Origin: Phycisphaeraceae bacterium
GTDB lineage: Bacteria; Planctomycetota; Phycisphaerae; Phycisphaerales; SM1A02
Direction: 5' to 3'
DNA length: 64,000 nt
Assembly (NCBI GenBank): GCA_019636755.1
Contig: JAHBWZ010000002.1
Span: forward strand, 124,001 to 188,000
The first letter of the stretch is position 1. The number at the start of each line of letters is the position of its first letter. Under the pieces are notes generated by a model that was given only the letters and a program-made list of their open reading frames with translations, was not told the DNA's origin and did not search any database. Below are positions 28,960 through 50,381 of the stretch, piece by piece. Both the position numbers and the translations under genes were made by a program.

Positions 28960-31171
28960 CCATGCACCGGTGCTCTATGCCGATGCGCCGTCGATCGGCG
29001 TCCTGCGCGGGGTCGCCCCCACCGGGACAGCGCTGGAGGTCGAGGCGGTAGTGCCGTGGGCGCCGACCGGGCTTCCGGCGCTGGGAGAGTTTCTGCTGGT
29101 GGAACTCTCGCCCGATGAGGCGCTGGTCATCCGCGTCATCCGGTTCCTCGTCATGGGCAGTCTGAGCGGAGCGCAGGGCGAGGAGTACCTGGCCGACTGC
29201 GCGCGCCAGGGCGAGGGCCCGCCCGAGCCCATTCTCCGGCGGATGCTTCGATTCACGATGCGGGCCGCTGTTCTCGGGACGATCCGATCGAGTACGGCGG
29301 CCTTGACCTTCAGCGTCGGCGAGCGGACACCCGTCATGCTCGGATGCCGTCTGCGCCGTCCTGCGTCCGGCGCGCTTCACATGCTCTGTAATGTCGGCCT
29401 GGAGCGGGATCCTTCGGCCGCGATCCTCGGTCACTATGCGCTCGGACGGAGTGTCCGGTCGGACACCCCGGTACGCTTCAGTGTCGATCGCCTCAAGGGG
29501 CGACGGTCGTTCGTGTTCGCGCGGGCGGGGTACGGAAAGAGCAACCTGCTCAAGTACCTCATTTCGCAGCTCTACAGCGCGCCGCCGGATGTCGGCCTGC
29601 TGATTCTGGATCCGGAGGGTGAGTACGCACTTCCGGATGCGGAAGGACGGCCCGGACTCATCAATGTGCCGGCGCTGCGGGACAGGATCTCGCTGTACAC
29701 GAACCGTGCGGTACCTGCCGCCTACGAGCACGTCAGGCGGGGAGAGGCGTCGCTGGACCTGGGAGACTTCTCGCCGCAGGACATCGTGTCGTCATTCGTG
29801 GCACGGGACAAGCAGGAGATTGTCTCGATGAACAACGTCCGGATGATGCGGTTCCCGGAGTGGAGGAAACTGATCGCGCTGCTCGCGACCGAGGGCCACC
29901 ATGCATCGGACGAGGCGATCGCGGAAGTTGTCGGGCTCAGGGCACGCGGAAACGACGCCGTCCTCCAGGCGATCCGGAATAACCTGATACCGCCGATCTC
30001 GAGAATGCACCGGGATGGCGCGCCGATCGGTCGACGTCTCATCGCGGAACTTGCCGAAGGACGCATCGTCATCGTCGACACCTCGCTGCTGCCGCTCGAG
30101 GATGCGGAGTCACTGGGTGCGCTTCTGCTGCAGCGGATCTTCAGCCACAATCGGAAACACTTCACTGACCCGGCTCGACCCAGTGTCCGGTGCCTGGCCG
30201 TCATCGAGGAGGCGCAGACCGTCCTGGGCGGTCGGTCCCCTGATGATCGAAGCATCTGGGTCCGTTGGGTCAAGGAAGGCCGCAAGTACGGCCTGGGCTG
30301 CGTGCTCGTGACGCAGCAGCCCGGCGCGATCTCGGAGCAGATCATCAGCCAGGGCGACAACTTCTTCGTGATGCACCTGCTCAATGACGGTGACCTGCGC
30401 ATGCTGCAGCGGCACAACGGCTACTTCACCGAAGATCTGCTCTCGTTCATACGCAGCGAGCCTATCCGCGGCAACTGCTTCTTCTGGAGCGCGCCGGACC
30501 AGCCGTACGTACTGCCGGCACGTGTGATGAACTTCGAGGAAGTGACCGACCGGCGCCCGGCGGATGCGATCGCGCCGACCCGGGTCTCCGACACTCGCGC
30601 GACAGCACCGGCGCCGCCAGGGGCATCGCGGGCGGCGATCCCGCACACGACCGCGCCGACAGCCGATTCCGGACAGACTCGGCGTACCGTGCGTGGAGTG
30701 CCACAGCCCGCGCGTGCAGCCAGCCCCGCACACGCCGTGGGTGGCAGCAGAGACGACGGCGAGGAGGGCCGCGTTCGTGACTTCGTCTGCGAGGCGATTG
30801 CCGTCGACCCGCGCCTGTGGCTCTATACCGCGCCACCGGAACTCGAAGGCGCGGCAGCGCCGGACGGATCCGGCGCCGCTGGTACCCGGACCATCGTATT
30901 CAGCCACGACTACCTGCTCGGCACCGTCGGCGATCGCTTCCGCCGCAATCCGGACCGGATCCACGCGGTCGACCGGGAGGCGTGGCTGCGCGACGAACTT
31001 CCCGTCCGCGTGAAGGTCGTGCTCACGGCGCTGGGAGGAACGCAGGGCTACGCACAGATCGCCGGTGCATACCGCCGCGTCTGGATCCTCCCCGCGTCAG
31101 CCGTTCCGGCGCTGGGCAGCACCGGAAAGACGTTCCGCGGCGATGTCGCGGGGATCGACCGGTCACTGTGA
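28946..31171 (+). CDS. herA: HerA-like ATPase (FtsK/HerA DNA translocase)
   Basis: A 741-residue AAA+ translocase of the FtsK-HerA family, expected to form a hexamer that feeds DNA to NurA. An N-terminal HAS-barrel-like region (about 1-150) precedes Walker A FARAGYGKSNLL (about 191-202). Walker B is LAVIEEAQTV at about 417-426, with an LVTQQPGAI sensor-like segment. RGNCFFWSAPDQPYVLPARV closes the core. A Pro/Ala-rich linker (about 550-610) is followed by an unusual C-terminal domain (about 615-741) with IVFSHDYLLGTVGDRFRR that I do not recognise. The ATG at 28946 overlaps the nurA stop by 14 bases. Confidence 0.82.
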   Translation: MSQPDHAPVLYADAPSIGVLRGVAPTGTALEVEAVVPWAPTGLPALGEFLLVELSPDEALVIRVIRFLVMGSLSGAQGEEYLADCARQGEGPPEPILRRMLRFTMRAAVLGTIRSSTAALTFSVGERTPVMLGCRLRRPASGALHMLCNVGLERDPSAAILGHYALGRSVRSDTPVRFSVDRLKGRRSFVFARAGYGKSNLLKYLISQLYSAPPDVGLLILDPEGEYALPDAEGRPGLINVPALRDRISLYTNRAVPAAYEHVRRGEASLDLGDFSPQDIVSSFVARDKQEIVSMNNVRMMRFPEWRKLIALLATEGHHASDEAIAEVVGLRARGNDAVLQAIRNNLIPPISRMHRDGAPIGRRLIAELAEGRIVIVDTSLLPLEDAESLGALLLQRIFSHNRKHFTDPARPSVRCLAVIEEAQTVLGGRSPDDRSIWVRWVKEGRKYGLGCVLVTQQPGAISEQIISQGDNFFVMHLLNDGDLRMLQRHNGYFTEDLLSFIRSEPIRGNCFFWSAPDQPYVLPARVMNFEEVTDRRPADAIAPTRVSDTRATAPAPPGASRAAIPHTTAPTADSGQTRRTVRGVPQPARAASPAHAVGGSRDDGEEGRVRDFVCEAIAVDPRLWLYTAPPELEGAAAPDGSGAAGTRTIVFSHDYLLGTVGDRFRRNPDRIHAVDREAWLRDELPVRVKVVLTALGGTQGYAQIAGAYRRVWILPASAVPALGSTGKTFRGDVAGIDRSL

Positions 31172-31394
31172 TGGGGCGAGCCTGGTCGGACACGCGGTGG
31201 GACGACCGCCCGGTCGCGGCGCCCTTCCCCTGGCGCTCGCCGAGGGGTATGCTCGTCCTCGACACGCCGCCCGGGCCTGGCTGACGGGGCAGTCCCGCAC
31301 CGCCAGGTACGCACTTCTCATGCGGCGTCCGCGCGCATCCGGCGCGCAACCAGCCGGCCCGGTCACCGGGCCCACATGTCCTGGGAGGCTCACC

Positions 31395-34016
31395 ATGGCG
31401 ATGGTTCAGATGCGACGTGCACAGGCGCTGTGCCTCGGCGGCATGACGGCGATCACGGCGGCGGCGCCGGGTGCGCCCGCCGCTCACCCTTCGACGCAGG
31501 ACGACCTCGGCGCACGGCGGTCCGCGGTCAGTCACGCAGCCGGCGCTCATGCCGACGCGGACGACTGCGAGGCTGCGTGGATCCCGACCAACGGCGGCTG
31601 GTCTTCGATCGGGTACTCCGAGGTCATTGCGCTCGTGGTCCATGACGATGGATCGGGACCTGCGGTCTACGCGTGCGGTGACTTCCGGAGCGCAGGCGGC
31701 ACATCGACCGACCGGATCGCGCGGTGGGACGGCGCCCGTTGGGCACCGCTCGGCAGCGGACTCTCCGGCAACGCCTTCGCGCTCGCCGTGTTCGACGATG
31801 GATCCGGCCCCGCGGTGTACGTCGGCGGTGACTTCTCCACCGCGGGCGGCACGTCTGCGAGGAACATCGCGCGATGGGACGGCGCGTCCTGGGCACCCCT
31901 GGGCGAAGGCCTGAACAACGCCGTGGAATCGCTGGCGGTCTTCGACGACGGGACAGGGCCCGCGCTCTACGCCGGCGGCCTCTTTACGATGGCCGGCGGC
32001 GGGCCGGCGGCCCGCATCGCGAAGTGGGATGGACGCACGTGGTCGCCTCTCGGCAGCGGCGTGAACGCCCGTGTGCATGCGCTCGCGGTCTTCGATGACG
32101 GCACGGGTCCTGCGCTCTACGCGGGAGGTCGATTCACCGTCGCCGGGGACATCGCCTCAGATCGGATCGCGCGCTGGGACGGGACCGGATGGGCACCGCT
32201 CGGATCGGGACTCTCCGGAATTCCGAACGCGCTCGTCCTGTCACTGGCGGCGTTCGACGATGGGACCGGGCCCGCGCTGTATGCCGGCGGCGCGTTCACG
32301 ATCGCAGGCAGCGTGTACGCGCCGGGGATCGCGCGATGGAACGGCACAGAGTGGACGGAGGTGGGCAGCGGCACGGATGACGCCGTCGCCGCGCTCTGCG
32401 TCTTCGACGATGGCTCCGGGAGATCGCTGTACGCGGGCGGGACCTTCACGACGGCCGGTGGCGTTCCGACCGGCAATGTCGCACGGTGGAACGGCGTCGA
32501 GTGGACGTCCCCTGGGCCCGGCTTTCCGGGCGGCTGGCAGTACAAGGTGAATGCGTTCGCAGTGATGGAGCACGAATCAGATCCCATGCTGTACGTGGGC
32601 GGCTCGTTCCAGGCGGTAGACGGCATCTCCTTTGACCGTACAGCGCGCTGGGACGGAACCCGGTGGCTGCCCCTCACCAATGGCCTGAACGGCTATGTGC
32701 GCGCGCTCGCCGTCGACGAGCATGACGGTGAGTCTGTGCTGTACGTCGGCGGCGCGTTCTCGACGGCCGGTGGCGCGCATGCGCGGAGGATCGCCCGCTG
32801 GGACGGCACGTCGTGGTCGTCGCTGGACGGCGGTATCCGGGGTCCCAGCGCCGTCACGAGCGTGCGTGCCATCCTGCCGACCCGGTCCCCCAGCGGCGAC
32901 ACCATCCTGATGGTCGGCGGCGCGTTCACGATCGCCGGCGATCAGCCTGCCGCCAACATCGCCTCCTGGGATGGCACCGGGTGGTCGCCGCTTGGCGGCG
33001 GCGTGAACGGCGGCGTCCTTTCACTCGCGACCTTCGACGACGGCACCGGACCCGCGCTGTATGTCGGCGGCGTCTTCGCGGCCGCGGGCGGCGTGCCGGC
33101 GCTGAGGATCGCGCGGTGGGACGGCGCGTCATGGTCGCCGGTGGGCAGTGGACTGGCGGGGCTGCAGAGCAGCGTGCAGGCGCTGCTCGCGTTCGACGAC
33201 GGCACCGGGCCCGCGCTGTACGCCGGCGGTCGCTTCACGCAGGCGGGCGACGCGCCCCTGGCCAACATCGCCAGGTGGGACGGCCGCGGGTGGTCGGATG
33301 TCGGCGGCGGCATGGATGGCACCGTCTCCGTGCTGGCGGTGCACGACGACGGCACCGGGCCCGCGCTGTACGCCGGCGGGAGTTTCACGGTCGCCGGCAC
33401 TGTTCAGACCGGAGGCATCGCGAAGTGGGATGGGATTGCGTGGACAGCGGTCGGCGGGGGGATTGACGGATCGGTGTCCGCCCTGTTCGTCGCCGACGAC
33501 GGCACCGGACCTGCGTTGCTCGCTGGCGGACAGTTCCTGTGGGCAGGTGGCGCGCCAGCCAACCACCTGGCGCGGTGGGACGGCACGTCATGGTCTCCGG
33601 TCGTCAGCACGATGAGTGCGGGCGTCGGCGCATTGGCCATGTACCACGACGTGTCTGCCGGTGGCATGGTCCTGGCCGTCGGCGGTACGTTTCTCAACTC
33701 GTCGACAGGTGACGCGTTTCTGACCAGGCGGCGGATCTGCCAGCGGGACTGCGACCGCGACGGCACGCCGGATCACCTCCAGATCGCCCGGGATCCATCG
33801 CTTGACGCCAACGCGGACGGCTTTCCTGACGCGTGCAGCCGTGCGCTTGGCGACTTCGACCTGAACGGCGCCGTGGAGTTCGAGGATCTGCTTGTCCTGC
33901 TCAGCCTGTTCGGCGCACTCGAGCCCGGGTTCGGAGACCTGAACACCGACGGCATCATCGACGAGTCGGACCTGGCCATACTCATCGCCAACTGGGGACC
34001 GTACCTGTCGCCATGA
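31395..34016 (+). CDS. exported repeat protein (about 14 kelch-like repeats) with dockerin-like tail
   Basis: An 873-residue exported protein. After a signal peptide, about 14 tandem repeats run to residue 770, each roughly 50-60 residues. The core phrase is GPALYAGGxFTxAGG, then IARWDGxxWSPLG. It closes with a calcium-binding RDCDRDGTPDHLQI segment and two dockerin-like loops, DFDLNGAVEFEDLL and DLNTDGIIDESDLA. GGAGG at 31384-31388 supports the ATG at 31395. The repeats resemble propeller or delta-60 type blades common in Phycisphaerae surface proteins. A large surface adhesin or scaffold is likely; ligand is unknown. Confidence 0.87.
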   Translation: MAMVQMRRAQALCLGGMTAITAAAPGAPAAHPSTQDDLGARRSAVSHAAGAHADADDCEAAWIPTNGGWSSIGYSEVIALVVHDDGSGPAVYACGDFRSAGGTSTDRIARWDGARWAPLGSGLSGNAFALAVFDDGSGPAVYVGGDFSTAGGTSARNIARWDGASWAPLGEGLNNAVESLAVFDDGTGPALYAGGLFTMAGGGPAARIAKWDGRTWSPLGSGVNARVHALAVFDDGTGPALYAGGRFTVAGDIASDRIARWDGTGWAPLGSGLSGIPNALVLSLAAFDDGTGPALYAGGAFTIAGSVYAPGIARWNGTEWTEVGSGTDDAVAALCVFDDGSGRSLYAGGTFTTAGGVPTGNVARWNGVEWTSPGPGFPGGWQYKVNAFAVMEHESDPMLYVGGSFQAVDGISFDRTARWDGTRWLPLTNGLNGYVRALAVDEHDGESVLYVGGAFSTAGGAHARRIARWDGTSWSSLDGGIRGPSAVTSVRAILPTRSPSGDTILMVGGAFTIAGDQPAANIASWDGTGWSPLGGGVNGGVLSLATFDDGTGPALYVGGVFAAAGGVPALRIARWDGASWSPVGSGLAGLQSSVQALLAFDDGTGPALYAGGRFTQAGDAPLANIARWDGRGWSDVGGGMDGTVSVLAVHDDGTGPALYAGGSFTVAGTVQTGGIAKWDGIAWTAVGGGIDGSVSALFVADDGTGPALLAGGQFLWAGGAPANHLARWDGTSWSPVVSTMSAGVGALAMYHDVSAGGMVLAVGGTFLNSSTGDAFLTRRRICQRDCDRDGTPDHLQIARDPSLDANADGFPDACSRALGDFDLNGAVEFEDLLVLLSLFGALEPGFGDLNTDGIIDESDLAILIANWGPYLSP

Positions 34017-36046: not shown

Positions 36047-38491
36047 TCAGGGCAACGACGGCGGCACGGCCGGCCCGTCCGCGGCCGGCGCATCGTCCGC
36101 CCCGGCCGGCCCCAGGAGTTCCGCGAGCGTCCGGCGCGCGGTGCGAAGGCGTTCATCCGTCTCGTCGACCCGCGCGGCAAGGCACGCCACGGCCCGGACG
36201 AGCGATGCCTCGGCGCGGGGGCGGTCGCCGGCGGCGAGCGCGATCGTCCCCATGTCGACCCGGACCATGCAGCACGCCTCGGAGTCCGGGCCCTGCCGGC
36301 GTTCCAGGAGTGCGAGCCGGCGCTCCGCGTGTGCCATCGCCTCGGCGTACCGGCCCTGGCCGTAGGCGATGCGCATCAGGGCGCTCAGCGCCACGTTGCG
36401 GTACCAGTTGTCCGGCCCGAATCGCGTCACGGTCATCGACTCGATCTCCCGGAAGAGCGCTTCCGCGTCCGTCACCTGTCCGGACTCCATCGCCGATCGC
36501 GCCGCTTCCAGCCGCAGTTCGATGGTGCGGGAATTCAACGGACCCAGTCGTTCCGAGGCCAGGGATGCCGCGCGCCGGAAGAGATCCGACGCGCCGGGAT
36601 CGCCGGCGTGCCGGAGCGTCGATGCAAGGTAGCGCATGGCCTCGAGGTCGTACGGCGCCTGCTCCGCGCCCGCCTGCGCGAATCGATCGACGATCCGGCG
36701 CATGACGGCCGCGGCGTCGTCATCGATGACGTGGGCGCGATGCAGCGCGGCCCGCCAGGTCACGGGGTCCTCATCGCCGTGGACGCGGCGGGCGTCGTCG
36801 TGGATGCCCGTGATCCGATCGGCGATGCCGTCGAGCCTGCGGGCGCTCATTGCGGCGAGCAGCGCATCCATGCGCCGGTGCAGCGTGATGCGATCGGTCG
36901 CACCACGCGTCATCACGCTCAGCGCGGCGGCCCGATCGAGCGTATCGGCCGCCGCCGCGAAGTCCGTCAGCGTCTGCATGGCCATGCCGAGCCGATGCAT
37001 CACCTCCGCCAGCACGCGCGGATCATCCGCCAGGCGGCGCTCGGCATCCGCGGCAACGAGTCGAAGCCGGTCCGACAGCGATCGATCCGGATCACCCGCA
37101 TGGTCCGGGTCCAGTGCCTCGATGAGGTCGCCCAGGAGGAAGTCCGCCATGGCGCGGACGCGATCGCGCTCGTGTTCCGCTTCCAGGAGCGCCGTCTCCG
37201 CGTCCCGGCGGCTCTCGGTGGCCCTGGTCAGCCCGATCACGGCGGCAACCGTTCCGGCGATGAGCGAGCACACCGCAACGGCGATCGCCGCGCTGGCAAC
37301 CCGGTGCCGGAGGATGAACCGGCCGAACAGGTAGAGCGGGCGCGGTGGCGTCGCCAGCACCGGTCGCCCGTCGAGATACCGGCGAAGATCATCGGCCAGC
37401 GCCGCCGCGGACGCATAGCGCTGATCGGGCTCCAGCGCGACCGCCATGAGCACGATCCGGTCGAGGTCTCCGCGCAGTTCGCGGCTTCGATGCAGGAGAT
37501 CCGGTCCGCCCCGCGCAGCCAGCGCGCTGGGACGGGTGGCCGCCGTGGTGACCGATCCTCCGCGGCGACCCGCGACGAGCGGCGCCCTGGGCACCTGTCC
37601 CGTCAGCACCTCGCAGAGCAGGACGCCGAGCGCGTACACGTCCGTGCGGAGGTCGACAGGCGACTCTCCCTGCGCCTGCTCCGGGCTCATGTAGCGCGGC
37701 GTCCCGAGCCGGGTCCCGCGCTGCGTCCGCTCGCCATCGCGGCTGTCATCATCGTCGTGCTCAAGCAGCCGCGCGATGCCGAAGTCGATGACGCGCGGTC
37801 GCGCCCGGCCATCCACGCGCTCCACCAGCACGTTCGCCGGCTTGAGGTCGCGATGGATCACCGCGCGCTGGTGGGCGTGGTGCACGGCATCGCAGACGTC
37901 CGCCACCAGGCGGACGCGATCACGGACGGAGAGCGCGTGGTGCTCGCAGTACCGGACCAGCGGCAGTCCGTCGACCAGTTCCATGGCCAGGAACGGCCGG
38001 CGCGATGCGTCCACGCCCGCGTCGAGCACGCGGGCGATGCCCGGATGATTCATCCGCGCCAGCAGGCGCGCCTCGGCGCGGAAGCGTGCCCGCAGCGATG
38101 GCGTCGCCAGTTCCGTGCGCAGCACCTTGACGGCCACGTCACGCTCCACCGGCTCCAGTTGCCGCGCCCGGAACACGATGCCGAAGCCACCCCGGCCGAT
38201 GCACTCCCCGATCGCATACCCGTCGATTTCCGGGGGCGGCCCGTCGTCGGCCTCCGGCGCCTCGTCGGCGTCAGGCGCGCCCGGGGGACCGGTCCCGTCC
38301 AGCAGCATGCCCGCCGCCCGGCGATGCGCCGCGCGCAGGGCCTCCGCAGCCGCGCGGACCGGCGGCGCCGCCAGCGCCCGCGCCTCGACGGCGCGCGCCA
38401 CATCCTCCGGCCCGGCGTCCGAGGCATCCGCCTCCTGCAGCAGCGCGAAGAGCGCCTTGACGGCGTCCGGATCCGGCGCTTCGTCGATCAC
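36047..38491 (-). CDS. Ser/Thr protein kinase with TPR-like C-terminal region
   Basis: An 814-residue membrane-bound kinase. The Hanks-type kinase domain (about 90-350) has the Gly loop IGRGGFGIVF, Lys122 (VAVKVLR), HRDLKPANV (Asp215) and DFG at 236-238. A transmembrane helix follows near residue 400 (VASAAIAVAVCSLIAGTV). After it are about 350 residues of helical repeats resembling TPRs (LGMAMQTLTDFAAAADTL, AEALFREIESMTVTRFG). Its GTG start overlaps the stop of the sigma factor gene by four bases (GTGA). Sigma-kinase pairs of this kind are common in planctomycetes. It probably phosphorylates regulators, perhaps the sigma factor's partner. Confidence 0.9.
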   Translation of the reverse strand: MIDEAPDPDAVKALFALLQEADASDAGPEDVARAVEARALAAPPVRAAAEALRAAHRRAAGMLLDGTGPPGAPDADEAPEADDGPPPEIDGYAIGECIGRGGFGIVFRARQLEPVERDVAVKVLRTELATPSLRARFRAEARLLARMNHPGIARVLDAGVDASRRPFLAMELVDGLPLVRYCEHHALSVRDRVRLVADVCDAVHHAHQRAVIHRDLKPANVLVERVDGRARPRVIDFGIARLLEHDDDDSRDGERTQRGTRLGTPRYMSPEQAQGESPVDLRTDVYALGVLLCEVLTGQVPRAPLVAGRRGGSVTTAATRPSALAARGGPDLLHRSRELRGDLDRIVLMAVALEPDQRYASAAALADDLRRYLDGRPVLATPPRPLYLFGRFILRHRVASAAIAVAVCSLIAGTVAAVIGLTRATESRRDAETALLEAEHERDRVRAMADFLLGDLIEALDPDHAGDPDRSLSDRLRLVAADAERRLADDPRVLAEVMHRLGMAMQTLTDFAAAADTLDRAAALSVMTRGATDRITLHRRMDALLAAMSARRLDGIADRITGIHDDARRVHGDEDPVTWRAALHRAHVIDDDAAAVMRRIVDRFAQAGAEQAPYDLEAMRYLASTLRHAGDPGASDLFRRAASLASERLGPLNSRTIELRLEAARSAMESGQVTDAEALFREIESMTVTRFGPDNWYRNVALSALMRIAYGQGRYAEAMAHAERRLALLERRQGPDSEACCMVRVDMGTIALAAGDRPRAEASLVRAVACLAARVDETDERLRTARRTLAELLGPAGADDAPAADGPAVPPSLP

Positions 38492-39129
38492 CCGTTGTCC
38501 GCACTCCCGTCGAGATCCCCGGATTCCAGGATCTGCTGAAGCCGGGCGCGGGCGAACTCCCAGTCCCGCTTGATCGTGCGATCCGACACCGAGAGCATCT
38601 GCGCGATCTCTTCGATCGACCGGCCGCCGTAGAAGCGCAGCCGGACGACGGTGGCCGCGCGGTCATCCTCCTGCTCGAGTCGGCAGAGTGCATCGTCCAG
38701 GGAGACGAGGTCATCCGGATCGGCGCTGACGGACGCTTCCAGCAGGTCAAGGGCGATCCGTCCAGGCCGGCGCGCCGACCCGCGCTTGCCCGCCGCCCGC
38801 GCGCGGGCATGGTCGATGAGGATGCGGCGCATCGCGGTTGCGGCGGCCTTGTAGAACGCGTGCCGATGCGCGAACGCCGGCGGCGGCTCCGTCCCGGACA
38901 TCCGGAAGAGACGGAGCCACGACTCGTTGACCAGCGCCGTGGCACCGAGCGTGTGATCCATCCGCTCGCCCCGCATGTGCGATCGGGCGATCTTCTGAAG
39001 TTCCTCGTAGACGATCCGCAGGAGTTCATCGCGCTCCGACACCGAGCCCGCCGCCGCGGCATGCAGCAACCGGGTGATCTCCGGGCCAGGCCGCTGGCCG
39101 GGATGCTCGGACGGGTCGGAGGACGTCAC
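38488..39129 (-). CDS. ECF-type RNA polymerase sigma factor (TIGR02999-like)
   Basis: A 213-residue alternative sigma factor. Region 2 has the diagnostic LGATALVNESWLRLF and the HAFYKAAATAMRRILIDHARAR block of the planctomycete TIGR02999 group. Region 4 has AATVVRLRFYGGRSIEEIAQ with LSVSDRTIKRDWEFARA as its DNA-recognition helix. The GTG at 39129 is preferred because upstream residues are low complexity. It is translationally coupled to the downstream Ser/Thr kinase by a four-base overlap, so kinase signalling may control it. Target promoters are unknown. Confidence 0.93.
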   Translation of the reverse strand: MTSSDPSEHPGQRPGPEITRLLHAAAAGSVSERDELLRIVYEELQKIARSHMRGERMDHTLGATALVNESWLRLFRMSGTEPPPAFAHRHAFYKAAATAMRRILIDHARARAAGKRGSARRPGRIALDLLEASVSADPDDLVSLDDALCRLEQEDDRAATVVRLRFYGGRSIEEIAQMLSVSDRTIKRDWEFARARLQQILESGDLDGSADNG

Positions 39130-39252
39130 CAGGGCGCCATCGGCAGGATGGGGACCAGGCGCCCAATGGCCGGCGGAGATCAGGCCGCCGGGAGCCGCCC
39201 GCGTGCTGCGGCACATTGTCCGGCTTCCCCAGGCTGCCAGCCGCCGCACGGG

Positions 39253-39542
39253 ACAACCGGCACCGCATCGCCGGCAGGCCCGCCGCGGCGGTGCGGTCCG
39301 ATGGGACCAGCCGGGGGGACTTCCGTGGGGGACGTATCCAGGGGCCCGGGGGACATCGGCGGGAACACGGCCGGCAGACCCGCGAGGGGAGGCGTCGACA
39401 ACGTGACGACGACGACGACGGCATCACCTCACGCGGCGGTGCACGCGTCCGCACGGCGCAGTCGGACCAGCGGACTCGAACGCGCGGCGCGCGGCGCCGT
39501 GCTCGCGATGAGCGTGCTGGCGACGGTGATCGCGGGGGGTGG
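39253..39542. repeat. direct repeat, copy 1 (leader and start of duplicated lipoprotein module)
   Basis: Bases 39253-39542 closely match 40931-41237, with small indels, mostly in a GACGAC-rich segment. The shared part is the leader, the ribosome site and the first 50 or so codons of the lipoprotein gene. It shows that the module at 39.3-42.9 kb arose by tandem duplication. Confidence 0.85.
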
Positions 39543-39748
39543 GGTGGTCAGCGCGGGTTGAACTCGACTGTGACGGGCAGGGGCGACTCCTCTTCGTCAG
39601 GGACCTCGCCATCTGTCTCGACGGAACCATCTGGCTGCCCGAGCCCGACGCGTTCCCGCTGGCCTGCGATCGCATCGTCCTGCCGGACCGGGATCTCCCG
39701 GCCATGATCCATCTTCTCCAGGCGCTCTGGCGCCCGCCGCCATCGTGA
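39403..39748 (+). pseudogene. decayed first copy of the module lipoprotein
   Basis: The copy keeps the start (GTG at 39403) and signal helix (LAMSVLATVIAGGG), then hits a stop at 39559. In the next frame, codons resume as ELDCDGQGRLLFVRDL, then ICLDGTIWLPEPDAFPLA, and ALWRPPPS at the end. Against the intact second copy (41082-41909) it has lost the central segment after RDL (roughly 80 residues) and a further 35 or so residues before the last helix, besides the frame change. The gene is therefore dead, while its partner downstream at 39874 is intact. Confidence 0.75.
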
Positions 39749-39789
39749 CCGGAGCCGGGCCGCATCTGACCTCGACCGGACCGTGGCGG

Positions 39790-39801
39790 ATCTGCTACAA
39801 C
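39790..39801 (+). promoter_or_regulatory. conserved box upstream of the first peptidase-like gene
   Basis: ATCTGCTACAAC at 39790-39801 matches ATCTGTTACAAC at 41952-41963, upstream of the second copy, in sequence otherwise diverged. TACAAC could be a -10 element. No -35 box is clear. Confidence 0.25.
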
Positions 39802-39873
39802 GCGCACCGGGACGCCGTGGCGGCCGCGCCGCAGCATGCGGCGTCCCGGTGCACGCCGACATACACCACATCC

Positions 39874-40725
39874 ATGGCTCACCCAGTCCTGATCTACACC
39901 ACGAGCCTCGTCCGATCCGCGCTGCTTGTGACGGTCCTCCTTGTCAGTGCTGGAGGGTGCGCCGCCACTCTGCTCTCTCCAGCCGCCGCGCGTGAACTCG
40001 GATCCCTGGGCTTCCATGCGGACTCCCTGGCCTTCTCGACAAGGCAGATGAATGTCTCATGGATGACACGCGACACGATCTTCATGACCCGACACCAATG
40101 GGACATGATGGACGTCGACGCTGAGTCACAGCGCACCGTGGCACAGCACGCTGATCGCCGACTCTCCATTGAACTGATGGCGGCCGGTGAAGGCGCAGGC
40201 GGCGCATTCGACTGGGTACTGGCCCGAGTCGTCCCGGCGCGGGGGCATCGTGCCAGGCCGGCGCCTCTGGATCCTCTCCTTCTGCCGAGGCAGGGCGATG
40301 TCGTCGCCGTCCAGTCGATTGTCACGGACATGGTCCACATCAGCGACACCCTGATCGCAGAATCAGCGACACCCACCCAGGTCGTCGGTCGCATCACGAC
40401 TGTCGGCACCACCCCGCCTGTCGCGCAGTCAGACCCCGGGTGCCGTCCGCCGGCTGGTCTCCTGATCCACGCGCGCCTCGACGAGGCTGGAGTCGGGCCC
40501 GGCTGGAGCGGGTCACCGGCATTCGTCTGGGAACCCCGCAGTGCACAGTGGCACTTCCTTGGCATTCTCGTCTCTGCGCAGTTCGACCAGCGCGCCGCAC
40601 GGCAGACGGAACTCCGGACCGACCGTGTCACCATCCTCCGCCCTCCCGTCTGGACATTCGACCTCATCCCACCCGACGTGCCGCGCGTGACGATGCCTTC
40701 GCCGCCATCGCCGGCGGACGGATGA
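39874..40725 (+). CDS. lipoprotein resembling a trypsin-fold (PA clan) peptidase, copy 1
   Basis: A 283-residue predicted lipoprotein; the lipobox is SAGGC at Cys29. Three motifs line up in the order of a chymotrypsin-fold triad. FMTRHQW (His74) sits like TAAHC. FDWVLARV (Asp113) sits like DIALIRL. PGWSGSPAFVW (Ser212) sits like GDSGGP. The second copy keeps all three (His63, Asp102, Ser201). The last residues are Pro-rich. If right, it is an envelope serine peptidase or a decayed relative. The ATG at 39874 gives a proper signal sequence, whereas the longer frame starts inside the previous gene. Its partner lipoprotein upstream is decayed. Confidence 0.6.
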   Translation: MAHPVLIYTTSLVRSALLVTVLLVSAGGCAATLLSPAAARELGSLGFHADSLAFSTRQMNVSWMTRDTIFMTRHQWDMMDVDAESQRTVAQHADRRLSIELMAAGEGAGGAFDWVLARVVPARGHRARPAPLDPLLLPRQGDVVAVQSIVTDMVHISDTLIAESATPTQVVGRITTVGTTPPVAQSDPGCRPPAGLLIHARLDEAGVGPGWSGSPAFVWEPRSAQWHFLGILVSAQFDQRAARQTELRTDRVTILRPPVWTFDLIPPDVPRVTMPSPPSPADG

Positions 40726-40930
40726 CCTGCACACGGTGGATGACCGGGCGGCCAGGCGCCTCTCGCACCACGTGCATCCTGACCGCACACGACGCCGGAG
40801 CATGGGTGAGGCCGACTCGCGCGCGCCGCCCGCGGCACCGACGGCGCGGCCGGCGAGGCGCTGCAGGAAATCGCCGCCGGACGTCGCGGCATTTCGTCCG
40901 CGCGACGGCGCCGTCCGCCCTCGGCGCGGT

Positions 40931-41237
40931 ACAACCGGCATCGCATCGCCGGCAGACCGGCCGCGGCGGTGCGGTCGGATGGGACCAGCCGGGGGGGACT
41001 TCCGTGGGGGATGTATCCAGGGGCCCGGGGGACATCGGCGGGAACACGGCCGGCAGACCCGCCAGGGGAGGAGTCGACATCATGACGACGACGAGGACGA
41101 GGACGAGGACGACGGCATCACATCGCGCTGCGGTGCACGCGTGCGCCCGGCACGGCCGGACCGGGGGACGCGCACGCGCGGCGCGCTGGGCCGTGCTCGC
41201 GATGAGCGCGCTGGCGATGGTGATCGCGGGGGTGGGG
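40931..41237. repeat. direct repeat, copy 2 (leader and start of duplicated lipoprotein module)
   Basis: This copy matches 39253-39542 and leads into the intact lipoprotein gene. It includes a GGGGAGGAG ribosome site followed by ATG at 41082, where the first copy has GTG. Confidence 0.85.
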
Positions 41238-41909
41238 TGCTCGGGGAGGGTGAGCATCGCCGGGCCCGGCTTCCGCGGTGACGTCACCTTCAGGGAGTCA
41301 CCGGCCCAGGCAACCGCACCAGTGACGCGCTGCGGCGAGGGCACGTACGACGGTCGTCCCATCGAGCTCTACTGCGATGCGCACGGCCGGCTGGTATTCA
41401 TCAAGGATCTGACCACCGGTCGGTGGTACAGGGTGAGCAGTCCCGAGCCGATGCTGCCGCCGGACGTACCGCATTTCACGTTCCACGGCATGGCGTACAT
41501 CCTCCCGCCTGAGCCCGCGGAGACCACGCTGTCGCTGCCTGATGGGTCCAATGAGGAGATCCTCGAGCAGTGGGGTGGCGCGATCCACCGGGACGGCTCC
41601 GTGCGCGCGGGCGGCGCCTGGCAGTACGATCGAGGCCTCGATCAGCTGGATCTCTCCATATGCCTCGACGGAACCACCTGGCTGCCCGAGCCCGATGCGT
41701 TCCCGCTGGCCTATGAACTCATCGTCCTGCCAGACGCTGACCTTCCCCTCATGCTCCACCGGGTGGTCGGCAGTCGCGCCGATGTCCTTGCCTACATGGA
41801 CGCCATCGGTGTCGAGCACTGCGAGCTGGACGTCGACGGCTATGGCCCGGTACCCGCGGCCATGCTCCAGCTTCTCCAGACGCTCTGGCGCCCGCCGCAG
41901 CCGTCGTGA
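41082..41909 (+). CDS. module lipoprotein, intact copy
   Basis: A 275-residue predicted lipoprotein of unknown family. A Thr/Arg-rich N-terminus and the helix VLAMSALAMVIAGVGC end at the likely lipidated Cys. The body has CGEGTYDGRPIELYCD and GRLVFIKDLTTGRWYRV, a two-strand phrase that looks like a small-ligand or peptide-binding domain. LSICLDGTTWLPEPDAF and ALWRPP-type helices follow near the end. The gene lies directly upstream of a peptidase-like lipoprotein gene in both module copies, so the two products probably act together in the cell envelope. I do not recognise a function. Confidence 0.75.
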   Translation: MTTTRTRTRTTASHRAAVHACARHGRTGGRARAARWAVLAMSALAMVIAGVGCSGRVSIAGPGFRGDVTFRESPAQATAPVTRCGEGTYDGRPIELYCDAHGRLVFIKDLTTGRWYRVSSPEPMLPPDVPHFTFHGMAYILPPEPAETTLSLPDGSNEEILEQWGGAIHRDGSVRAGGAWQYDRGLDQLDLSICLDGTTWLPEPDAFPLAYELIVLPDADLPLMLHRVVGSRADVLAYMDAIGVEHCELDVDGYGPVPAAMLQLLQTLWRPPQPS

Positions 41910-41951
41910 CTCACGCCCAATCGCCTCGTCCGACACCACCAGGCGTCGGAC

Positions 41952-41963
41952 ATCTGTTACAAC
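41952..41963 (+). promoter_or_regulatory. conserved box upstream of the second peptidase-like gene
   Basis: ATCTGTTACAAC is shared with 39790-39801. It lies about 110 bases before the likely ATG at 42075. A promoter -10 role is a guess. Confidence 0.25.
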
Positions 41964-42074
41964 TCGCCCCGGGGCATCCCGTCTGCTGCGGATCAGGAGC
42001 CGGCGCCCCGGGGCGCCTTCCCTGGTCGAACCGAATTCATGGCATGTACGAACGCACATCGAGCCGCCGTGAAC

Positions 42075-42992
42075 ATGACCATGTCAGCTCGAATGACCAT
42101 CGTCACACTCGCCATCCTCAGCGGTTGCACAGCGACTTTTGTGCCGCCATCCGCAGCGCGCTCGCTTGAGTGCCTCGGCTTTCACGCCATGCCGCTCCAG
42201 TTCGGGAATCGCATGGCGAATGTCTCGTGGTTCACTCGAGAGATGGTGTATCTGACACGCCACCAGTGGGACTCAATGGCGGTTGATCCCTACACAATGG
42301 CTATCGACGGCTACTACGGCGATCGGCCGGTCACGGCGCAGCTGATTGCGGGCGGCGAGGGCGAACGTGAAGTGCATGACTGGGCGCTTGTACGGGTGTC
42401 GCCTCCGCGGAGCATCAAACCCGGTCACGTCGCGCCGGACAGACGGATGTCACCCAATGTCGGTGACCTCGTCACCGTTCAGACGTTCGTCGGCAGATCG
42501 TCGAGACCAGACGAGCCAAGGAGCGCGGAGACGTTCTCGGCGTATCAGGTCTTTGGGCGAATCACGCGCTTCACAGGAGACATGGCATCCCATCCTGTCG
42601 CCCCCGAAGCACGTCATCCCGCTGGACTGCTGATCGAAGCGGACCTCGATGCCGCCGTGGTCAGACCCGGATGGAGCGGCTCGCCGGCCTTCGTCTGGGA
42701 TGCCCGGGCCCGCGAGTGGAGGTTTCTCGGCATCGTGATCACGGCGAAACTGGAACGGCGCGACTTCGATCGTGACAACGCCGGAAGCGCCACCGTCATT
42801 CTCCTCCGCCCTCCCCTCTGGACCTTCGACCTCATCCCGCCTGATGTACCCGGCGTGACGATGCCGGGCCTCCCGGTCGTTCCCTCGCCATCGCCGTCGC
42901 CATCGTCGGACCTGAACCACAGTGGAGGATCGCGCGCGGACATCGCGCCGCCGCCGCAGGCGCGGCATCTGCTGGAACGTCCATGCCCCTGA
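42075..42992 (+). CDS. lipoprotein resembling a trypsin-fold (PA clan) peptidase, copy 2
   Basis: A 305-residue predicted lipoprotein (lipobox LSGC, Cys18) clearly homologous to the product of 39874-40725. YLTRHQW (His63), HDWALVRV (Asp102) and PGWSGSPAFVW (Ser201) match the triad motifs in order. LWTFDLIPPDVPGVTMP near the C-terminus is almost the same in both copies. The C-terminal tail is longer and Pro/Ser-rich. Several starts are possible between 42039 and 42093; 42075 leaves a proper signal sequence. It follows the intact module lipoprotein by 165 bases and probably works with it. Confidence 0.6.
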   Translation: MTMSARMTIVTLAILSGCTATFVPPSAARSLECLGFHAMPLQFGNRMANVSWFTREMVYLTRHQWDSMAVDPYTMAIDGYYGDRPVTAQLIAGGEGEREVHDWALVRVSPPRSIKPGHVAPDRRMSPNVGDLVTVQTFVGRSSRPDEPRSAETFSAYQVFGRITRFTGDMASHPVAPEARHPAGLLIEADLDAAVVRPGWSGSPAFVWDARAREWRFLGIVITAKLERRDFDRDNAGSATVILLRPPLWTFDLIPPDVPGVTMPGLPVVPSPSPSPSSDLNHSGGSRADIAPPPQARHLLERPCP

Positions 42993-43011: not shown

Positions 43012-44184
43012 TCAGCGTTCAGCGTCGGTCCAGATCCGCTCCTCGAGGCCGCACGGCTCGCATCGGCGCAGGAAGACCGGGCCCTGCTTGCGGATCCGGA
43101 CGACCTTGCCGCCGCGGCCCTCGGCGCCGCAGATGGAGCAGATCGTCGGCATCGGTGTGTTCTTGCCACACGCCTCGCACTTCCAGTAGTACCCGTACTT
43201 GCCCCAGCGGCCGACGAGCCGCGCATCTCCGCACGCTCCACAGCGCGGCTGTGTGACAGGCGCCGCCGGCCGAGGTGGAGACTGGCCCTTCTGAGCGTTG
43301 TCCGACCTGCCGGTTGCGTGCTGAGGCGCGCGCCGGATCTCGGTGGCCAAGGGCGCGCTCGACGCGTGCGACCTTCCCGCACGATCGTCGGGTACTCGGG
43401 CCGCCGCCGCAACCGGTGCCGATTGGAGCGGCTGGTGCCGTGCCGCGAGGAACTCGGCAACGGCGCGAGGCTCCTCCTGCCTCATGCTCCACGCGCCATA
43501 CAGCTCCTTCCCAGCCTGCATCGGCGAGGACCCTGCCACATGCCGCTTGAACTCCTCCGTGACCCGGTCGGGCACCAGGTCAGCCTTGCAGACGTGGACC
43601 TGGAACGGCTTCTCCGGCGGCGTCCATCCGCCGAGGCGCGTGATTCGACCGCGATCAGAGACCGCGACCAGGACCTGCACGGCCAGCCCCTTGAACCCGC
43701 GCTGATCCGTGTGATGCACGATCTTCGCGATCGTCCGCAGGCCCATGGGCACCCGCCCGAGCAGCGATCCGCGGTGGCGCTGCAGGAACGCGCGCAGAAA
43801 CTCGCCCTGCCGGCGCGCCTGCTGAATCGGTGACGGGAAGCCCGTCTCGCGCCCTCTGTAGACCCGGACCCACTCATCACCACCGGCGCCATCGCCACGG
43901 ACGCGGACCTCCTCGGAGATCGACTTGCTCTCGATGATGAAGACACCGAATCGATGCACGATCAGGTGATCGATCTGGCACACACCGGCCGATCCGTCGT
44001 GTTCCGGCTGCTCAGGATCCACGAGCCGAAGTCCGTTCACGACGAAGAGGTCGGGGTGACTTGAGAACGCGCGATGCAGGTAGAACGCCAGTTGCTCCTC
44101 GGCCTTCTCACCGGCGAGCGCCAGCCTGTCGTTCGTGGAGCCACTCGCCCTTGTGTACGGCCTGATGATCATCGCGTCCCTCAC
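43012..44184 (-). CDS. NERD domain protein with C-terminal zinc ribbons
   Basis: A 390-residue cytoplasmic protein. The N-terminal NERD (nuclease-related) domain has GEKAEEQLAFYL, the CQIDHLIVHRFG metal-binding Asp (Asp72) and FIIESKSIS (Glu85, Lys87), a PD-(D/E)xK-type active site. A low-complexity linker (about 260-320) leads to zinc-binding Cys pairs: CGACGDARLVG, CEACGKNTP, CSICGAEG and CEPCGLEER. The zinc ribbons suggest nucleic-acid binding. An alternative start lies at 44172. It is convergent with the peptidase-like gene 19 bases away. A DNA or RNA processing role is likely; the substrate is unknown. Confidence 0.85.
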   Translation of the reverse strand: MRDAMIIRPYTRASGSTNDRLALAGEKAEEQLAFYLHRAFSSHPDLFVVNGLRLVDPEQPEHDGSAGVCQIDHLIVHRFGVFIIESKSISEEVRVRGDGAGGDEWVRVYRGRETGFPSPIQQARRQGEFLRAFLQRHRGSLLGRVPMGLRTIAKIVHHTDQRGFKGLAVQVLVAVSDRGRITRLGGWTPPEKPFQVHVCKADLVPDRVTEEFKRHVAGSSPMQAGKELYGAWSMRQEEPRAVAEFLAARHQPLQSAPVAAAARVPDDRAGRSHASSAPLATEIRRAPQHATGRSDNAQKGQSPPRPAAPVTQPRCGACGDARLVGRWGKYGYYWKCEACGKNTPMPTICSICGAEGRGGKVVRIRKQGPVFLRRCEPCGLEERIWTDAER

Positions 44185-49425: not shown

Positions 49426-49456
49426 GATTCTCTGTGGTGCATGCCGCTTCGATCGT

Positions 49457-49623
49457 CACCACAGAGGACTCAGAGGGCACAGAGTGCACCGCGATCGCGT
49501 GCCGCGCGCACTCTCATCATGCAGCCAGCTGGTGTCGCAGATCCGAAATCCGAGATACTGCGCGCCCGCACACCGCGCCATTCCATCGCATTGACCTCCG
49601 TGACCTCTGTGCCCTCTGTGGTG
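49457..49623. repeat. 167-bp element with inverted ends, copy 1
   Basis: The ends are perfect inverted repeats over 11 bases (CACCACAGAGG and CCTCTGTGGTG), with an imperfect extension of about 28 bases built of CACAGAGG-like units. The centre contains a GCGATCGCG-type stretch and CGCGCGCACTC. A second copy of exactly the same length lies at 50105-50271, on the other side of the VOC gene. It has no coding capacity of its own. Confidence 0.85.
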
Positions 49624-49668
49624 CGCACCAGGCGCGGACCGCAGGGCAGCCCCCACTGAGAGAACCCC

Positions 49669-50052: not shown

Positions 50053-50104
50053 CGCCGTGCGATGACGGCGCGTCCATCGGTGATCATCGTCGCCAGGCGG
50101 TCAT

Positions 50105-50271
50105 CACCACAGAGGACGCAGAGGGCACAGAGGGCGCTGCGATCGCGCGCCGCGCGCACTCCCGTCATGCAGCCCGTTGGTATCGCGGACCCGCAATCCG
50201 AGAGGTCTCGCACACGCACACCGTTCCATTCCACAGCATTGATCTCTGTGAGCTCTGTGACCTCTGTGGTG
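50105..50271. repeat. 167-bp element with inverted ends, copy 2
   Basis: This matches 49457-49623 in length, in terminal inverted repeats and along most of the interior, in the same orientation. CACCACAGAGG starts it and CCTCTGTGGTG ends it. Confidence 0.85.
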
Positions 50272-50381
50272 CATGCCGCGACCAGGGACGGCAGACCCTG
50301 GGAGCGCGCCCATGAGCGCGCCGCCGGCAATGCACAGCTCTCCGACCAGCCGGATCCGTGAGGCACTCCCCGAGGCGCGGA

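Follow-up and report, generated by a model that had tools for sequence, protein, structure and literature searches.

Two adjacent copies of a two-gene unit from a Phycisphaeraceae bacterium, each coding for a putative partner lipoprotein and a putative trypsin-like lipoprotein, probably descend from an old tandem duplication of the whole unit. Conversion would later have homogenised the promoter and the ends of the partner genes, partner A would have eroded, and the peptidase genes would have been maintained by purifying selection; we give this reading, together with the roles proposed below for the proteins, a probability of about 0.72. The repeat that first catches the eye in this locus looks more recent than the duplication it would be taken to mark, and the case warns against using the best-conserved segment of a duplication as a measure of its age.

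Organization of the locus

The window, i.e. the whole stretch of 64,000 nt that was analyzed, belongs to contig C12 (586 kb) of a 4.1-Mb genome that is 99% complete and assembled in 20 contigs. A sequence-only reading had described here a tandem duplication of a module comprising a lipoprotein gene and a peptidase-like gene, and both copies were recovered: units A (39246–40725) and B (40924–42992) lie head to tail on the plus strand, each with the gene for the partner lipoprotein followed by that for the trypsin-like lipoprotein. They are flanked by a divergent gene pair for an ECF sigma factor and a protein kinase, and by a convergent gene for a NERD-domain protein. The features of the locus are as follows:

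38488–39249, minus strand: ECF sigma factor (Sigma70_ECF), divergent neighbour; family match, true start probably within the ORF
39246–39402, plus strand: 5′ noncoding repeat of unit A, promoter/leader region and proposed conversion tract; 94% identity to 40924–41081
39403–39748, plus strand: remnant of partner lipoprotein A (pseudogene) with a GTG start; frameshift, loss of the lipobox Cys and three deletions
39560–39613, plus strand: non-homogenised patch ELDCDGQGRLLFVRDL inside pseudogene A; closer to the copy on contig C15 than to B
39874–40725, plus strand: pepA, trypsin-like lipoprotein A, with the H/D/S triad retained; the long ORF begins at GTG 39745
40924–41081, plus strand: 5′ noncoding repeat of unit B, aligned with that of unit A; Shine-Dalgarno-like GGGGAGGAG ahead of the ATG
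41082–41909, plus strand: partner lipoprotein B, 275 aa, intact; 49% identity to the C15 partner
42075–42992, plus strand: pepB, trypsin-like lipoprotein B, with the H/D/S triad retained; alternative ATG at 42039
43012–44184, minus strand: NERD-domain protein, convergent neighbour; family match

Elsewhere in the window, a gene at 31065–34016 (plus strand) codes for a 983-aa protein with a dockerin-like C-terminal tail and repeats of ca. 50 residues (VFDDGTGPALYAGG.F..AGG...IARWDG..W.PLG.G), ca. 65–71% alike at the DNA level, as in a typical secreted repeat protein. Dockerin-like tails, and the ECF sigma factor/kinase pair beside unit A, are in keeping with a planctomycete. A 175-base direct repeat (49450–49624 and 50098–50272, 83% identity), situated just after the gene for a large membrane protein, looks like a dispersed intergenic repeat.

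A third copy of the pair

The same genome contains a third intact pair, on the minus strand of contig C15, with the genes in the same order (partner at ca. 216593–217435, peptidase at 215655–216431) and a partner-peptidase spacer of 161 bases, versus 165 in unit B; the two partners share the 49% identity listed above. This indicates that the two genes travel together within the host genome, and to that extent bears out the idea that they form a conserved unit, although the pair was not found in the other genomes sampled (see below). A gene for a Gfo/Idh/MocA oxidoreductase is situated near both loci, yet the products are 29% identical over 211 aa, and a segmental duplication shared with the neighbours was rejected. 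A weak partner-like match (E = 0.0017) was also seen in an unrelated-looking ORF of contig C12 (80584–80895).

The peptidases and their partners

PepB shares ca. 44–45% identity with PepA and 34% with PepC, the peptidase of the C15 pair. The His (TRHQW), Asp (DW; DW.L.RV) and Ser (GWSG) motifs are invariant in the three proteins and occur in trypsin-like order, with H63, D102 and S201 as the triad residues, and they align with HLL/HVL, DW and G.SG of distant homologues. The earlier observation that the peptidase-like genes had diverged yet kept their motifs was therefore correct, with H, D and S present in all copies. The window peptidases fall below every Pfam cut-off (PepB scores 14.5 bits against PF13365, Trypsin_2, with a cut-off of 27.6), whereas a homologue in genome G393 exceeds the Trypsin_2 cut-off with 31.1 bits, so that they are assigned to the trypsin-like serine peptidases (PA clan) by linkage and not by a direct match. 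They also align over their length with lipoproteins from related genomes that carry HVL or HLL, DW, and GWSG or GLSG. The IgA1 protease/autotransporter S6 family (PF02395) was discarded (15.0 bits against a cut-off of 23.3, for a protein of only ca. 300 aa).

An AlphaFold2 model of PepB, of moderate confidence (pLDDT 60), has a chymotrypsin-like beta pattern, with DegS, DegP and Rv3671c as PDB matches. A Foldseek search with this model gave 233 matches with E ≤ 0.001, the best 50 of which were nearly all trypsin-like chains; the best match was Rv3671c (E = 3.9e-6), and many chains of DegS and DegP were found. With VIA-align, proteases of the viral 3C-like type and DegP were matched at Z values reaching 9.0. 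The model suggests, with caution, that PepB has a chymotrypsin-like double beta-barrel fold.

PepA, PepB, PepC and partners B and C all have a hydrophobic N-terminal run ending in G-C, with a non-canonical −3 residue in several of them. Partner B did not match any Pfam or NCBIfam family above the cut-off, and the structure model of the partner (pLDDT 50, pTM 0.34) was too poor for a structure search.

A direct repeat probably younger than the duplication

The ca. 300-base repeat described as heading both copies is present, but it is not of the same age as the peptidase genes and probably represents a tract homogenised later. It covers 39246–39558 and 40924–41251 with 85% identity, gaps included (E = 2e-105), and its noncoding part, 157 bases long, shows 10 substitutions and a gap of one base (94% identity). 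High similarity between the units ends at the stop codon of the partner gene, reaching background within the spacer; from there through the spacer and along the peptidase gene, DNA identity is ca. 44–68% per 80-base block, with 74–84% in the final stretch.

Silent sites are saturated between pepA and pepB (NG86 dS 1.46 and dN 0.52 over 272 codons; silent divergence 0.64), the third base being identical at 38 of 83 four-fold sites. Between the partner genes, the signal-peptide tract and the tail have silent divergences of 0.10 and 0.09, respectively, compared with 0.34–0.79 for the middle. The ends differ both from the middle (Fisher test, p = 6e-5) and from the peptidases (p = 6e-13), in statistics that come from short tracts with few sites in one genome. 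Changes in the signal tract are spread over codon positions 1, 2 and 3 (4, 8 and 5, respectively), so that its similarity is not explained by protein constraint. In the patch ELDCDGQGRLLFVRDL, A is identical to the C15 copy at 10 of 16 third-codon positions and to B at 6 of 16, and B is identical to the C15 copy at 3 of 16. Additionally, the residual alignment of the partner-peptidase spacers of A and B scores above 200 shuffles, which supports the view that the unit was duplicated as a whole, and long ago.

The locus therefore combines tracts of high similarity and sharp edges, silent and noncoding sites included, with a diverged background, which is what is expected from gene conversion; this mosaic fits an old whole-unit duplication with later partial conversion and not a single event. 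The age of the duplication cannot be read from the 300-base repeat. We propose an ancient tandem duplication of the two-gene unit, at about the time when this unit and the C15 copy separated or afterwards; the peptidase genes would then have diverged under purifying selection. Later, gene conversion between the neighbouring units, ca. 1.7–2.2 kb apart, or an equivalent partial re-duplication, would have copied parts of one unit over those of the other, namely the promoter/leader and the two ends of the partner gene (signal peptide and 3′ tail). Slippage between short direct repeats would have removed segments of partner A, which would also have lost its lipid-anchor cysteine and gained a frameshift.

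A scan of the region, directed at promoters of the sigma-70 type and intrinsic terminators, found neither. The sequence ATCTGYTACAAC occurs exactly twice in the window (39790–39801 and 41952–41963), each time in the spacer before the peptidase gene, with an expectation in the window of 0.11 within one mismatch; it is possibly a promoter element, or just residual homology.

Decay of partner A

That one partner lipoprotein had decayed was apparent from the sequence and was corroborated. Compared with B, partner A has deletions of 111, 243 and 111 bases, its lipobox Cys codon has changed from TGC to TGG (Cys to Trp), and one extra G, in the G run at ca. 39533–39540, shifts the frame, leading to a TGA at 39559–39561. 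Two of the three deletions are flanked in B by direct repeats (GGATCT at 41405/41648 and CATGCTCCA at 41750/41861), as expected of slippage. The extra G could be a sequencing error, but the loss of Cys would remain regardless.

Because the three deletions are all multiples of 3 (chance 1/27), partner A was possibly still translated as its decay began, and this hints at a period of translation that a simple dead gene would not need. Partner A might even be a shortened, still-translated protein today, with the extra G as a base-calling error or part of a phase-variable run: in addition to the in-frame deletions, its second frame is open from 39539 to 39748, up to the native stop, and the mature remnant has a dN of 0.16 against a dS of 0.57. 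Nevertheless, the protein would lack the lipobox Cys and depend on a GTG start, and dN is at or above dS in its signal tract, so we consider continued translation unlikely.

Constraint, recent duplication and assembly

The 5′ repeat directly precedes the start codon and spans the promoter/leader of both units, and strong functional constraint on regulatory DNA or on a structured leader, instead of recent copying, might have kept it alike. This is improbable, since the similarity upstream of the C15 pair is weak (ca. 60%) and, in the two units, similarity continues into the signal peptide of the dead gene without constraint by codon position, the 3′ tail of this gene being equally similar. A structured leader RNA was also rejected, because the repeat had no match in Rfam and its folding stability was no better than that of shuffles (z 0.6). 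Similarly, the repeat is not a dispersed element, because no further copy was found in the 4.1-Mb genome (next match, 39 bits).

The sequence-only reading saw diversification in the retention of both peptidase genes with the loss of one partner, a picture in which the whole unit would have been duplicated in tandem fairly recently, the peptidases then diverging fast and adaptively and the rest remaining similar. The tandem arrangement, the 5′ repeat common to both units and the retention of the peptidases while one partner decays would all agree with this. However, the peptidases have saturated silent sites and a dN far lower than their dS, whereas positive selection would raise dN and not dS; besides, a 6-fold gap in silent divergence between neighbouring genes is hard to obtain without recombination. 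No positive selection was seen on PepA and PepB, with a dN/dS of ca. 0.36 averaged over a very old divergence. The two proteins are under purifying selection; diversification as adaptive change is not supported, and a recent duplication of this kind is quite improbable. An assembly artefact by false expansion of a repeat, which would have undone the whole observation, has in its favour solely the presence of a tandem repeat within a 20-contig assembly, and is ruled out for practical purposes by the divergence between the copies (6–15% in the repeat and ca. 40–50% in the rest of the units) on a contig of 586 kb.

Distribution in other genomes

No close pair turned up in 60 relatives (profile search with the peptidase), in 346 other genomes of the class or in 180 other genomes of the family (partner search); the larger searches scored ca. 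6–17 candidates per genome, and absence is here a statement about sampling. Scans of the genome_contigs and viral_contigs collections found no relatives either. Finding the two genes apart in all other genomes had been put forward as evidence against a conserved unit, and this is nearly the case: in the sampled genomes, each half has distant relatives that are not accompanied by a relative of the other, the pair on C15 being the exception within the host.

Distant relatives of the peptidase form a tandem pair without partner in genome G292, and are alone in G393 and G012. The two adjacent trypsin-like lipoproteins of G292, a genome of the same taxonomic order (L050:3803–5412), look like an independent tandem pair of the same wider family; they resemble the proteins studied here in the GWSGSF, W.F(V)G(I/M) and RPP motifs, but they are not accompanied by a partner lipoprotein and are ca. 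20% identical to PepB. A solo distant relative of the partner is found in G020 (L054:733–1860), not adjoining a peptidase gene; a reverse search from it recovers the C15 partner, and the profile search of the 60 relatives found no peptidase relative in this genome.

Proposed role

Motifs and gene order suggest that the pair codes for a surface serine peptidase with an accessory lipoprotein. Both proteins would be exported and lipid-anchored; the peptidase would cleave proteins at the cell envelope, and the partner would have a binding or regulatory function, in which case unit A would either do without its own or borrow that of B. It is conceivable, though doubtful, that they constitute a lineage-specific envelope protease system, made of an undescribed family of accessory lipoproteins and a trypsin-like lipoprotein, where promoter conversion keeps the diverged peptidases co-expressed, possibly under the divergent ECF sigma factor, and the single partner B serves both. 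Otherwise, the locus shows gene-family evolution of a fairly ordinary kind. Its analysis draws attention to two lipoprotein families in this lineage for which there are no curated names.

Comparison with known systems

The Pep proteins resemble PA-clan trypsin-like peptidases (PF13365; DegS/DegP/HtrA and Rv3671c) in how His, Asp and Ser follow one another, in the residues around them and in the predicted beta-barrel pattern. They differ from this group in scoring below the Pfam cut-off, in carrying GWSG in place of GDSG or GNSG, in being putative lipoproteins that lack a PDZ or transmembrane domain, and in a C-terminal RPPxWxFDL..PDVPxVT motif.

Bacterial paralogues are described as undergoing gene conversion and concerted evolution (PMC1762029, PMC6053082); in prokaryotes, concerted evolution that lasts for long is reported to be rare (PMC6053082). 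A parallel is that of PE_PGRS17 and PE_PGRS18 of mycobacteria (PMC1762029), which are also neighbouring paralogues with tracts homogenised by conversion. Compared with what is described there for this pair, and for concerted evolution in prokaryotes, the homogenised tracts would here be the promoter, the signal peptide and the tail of the partner gene, one copy of which is dead.
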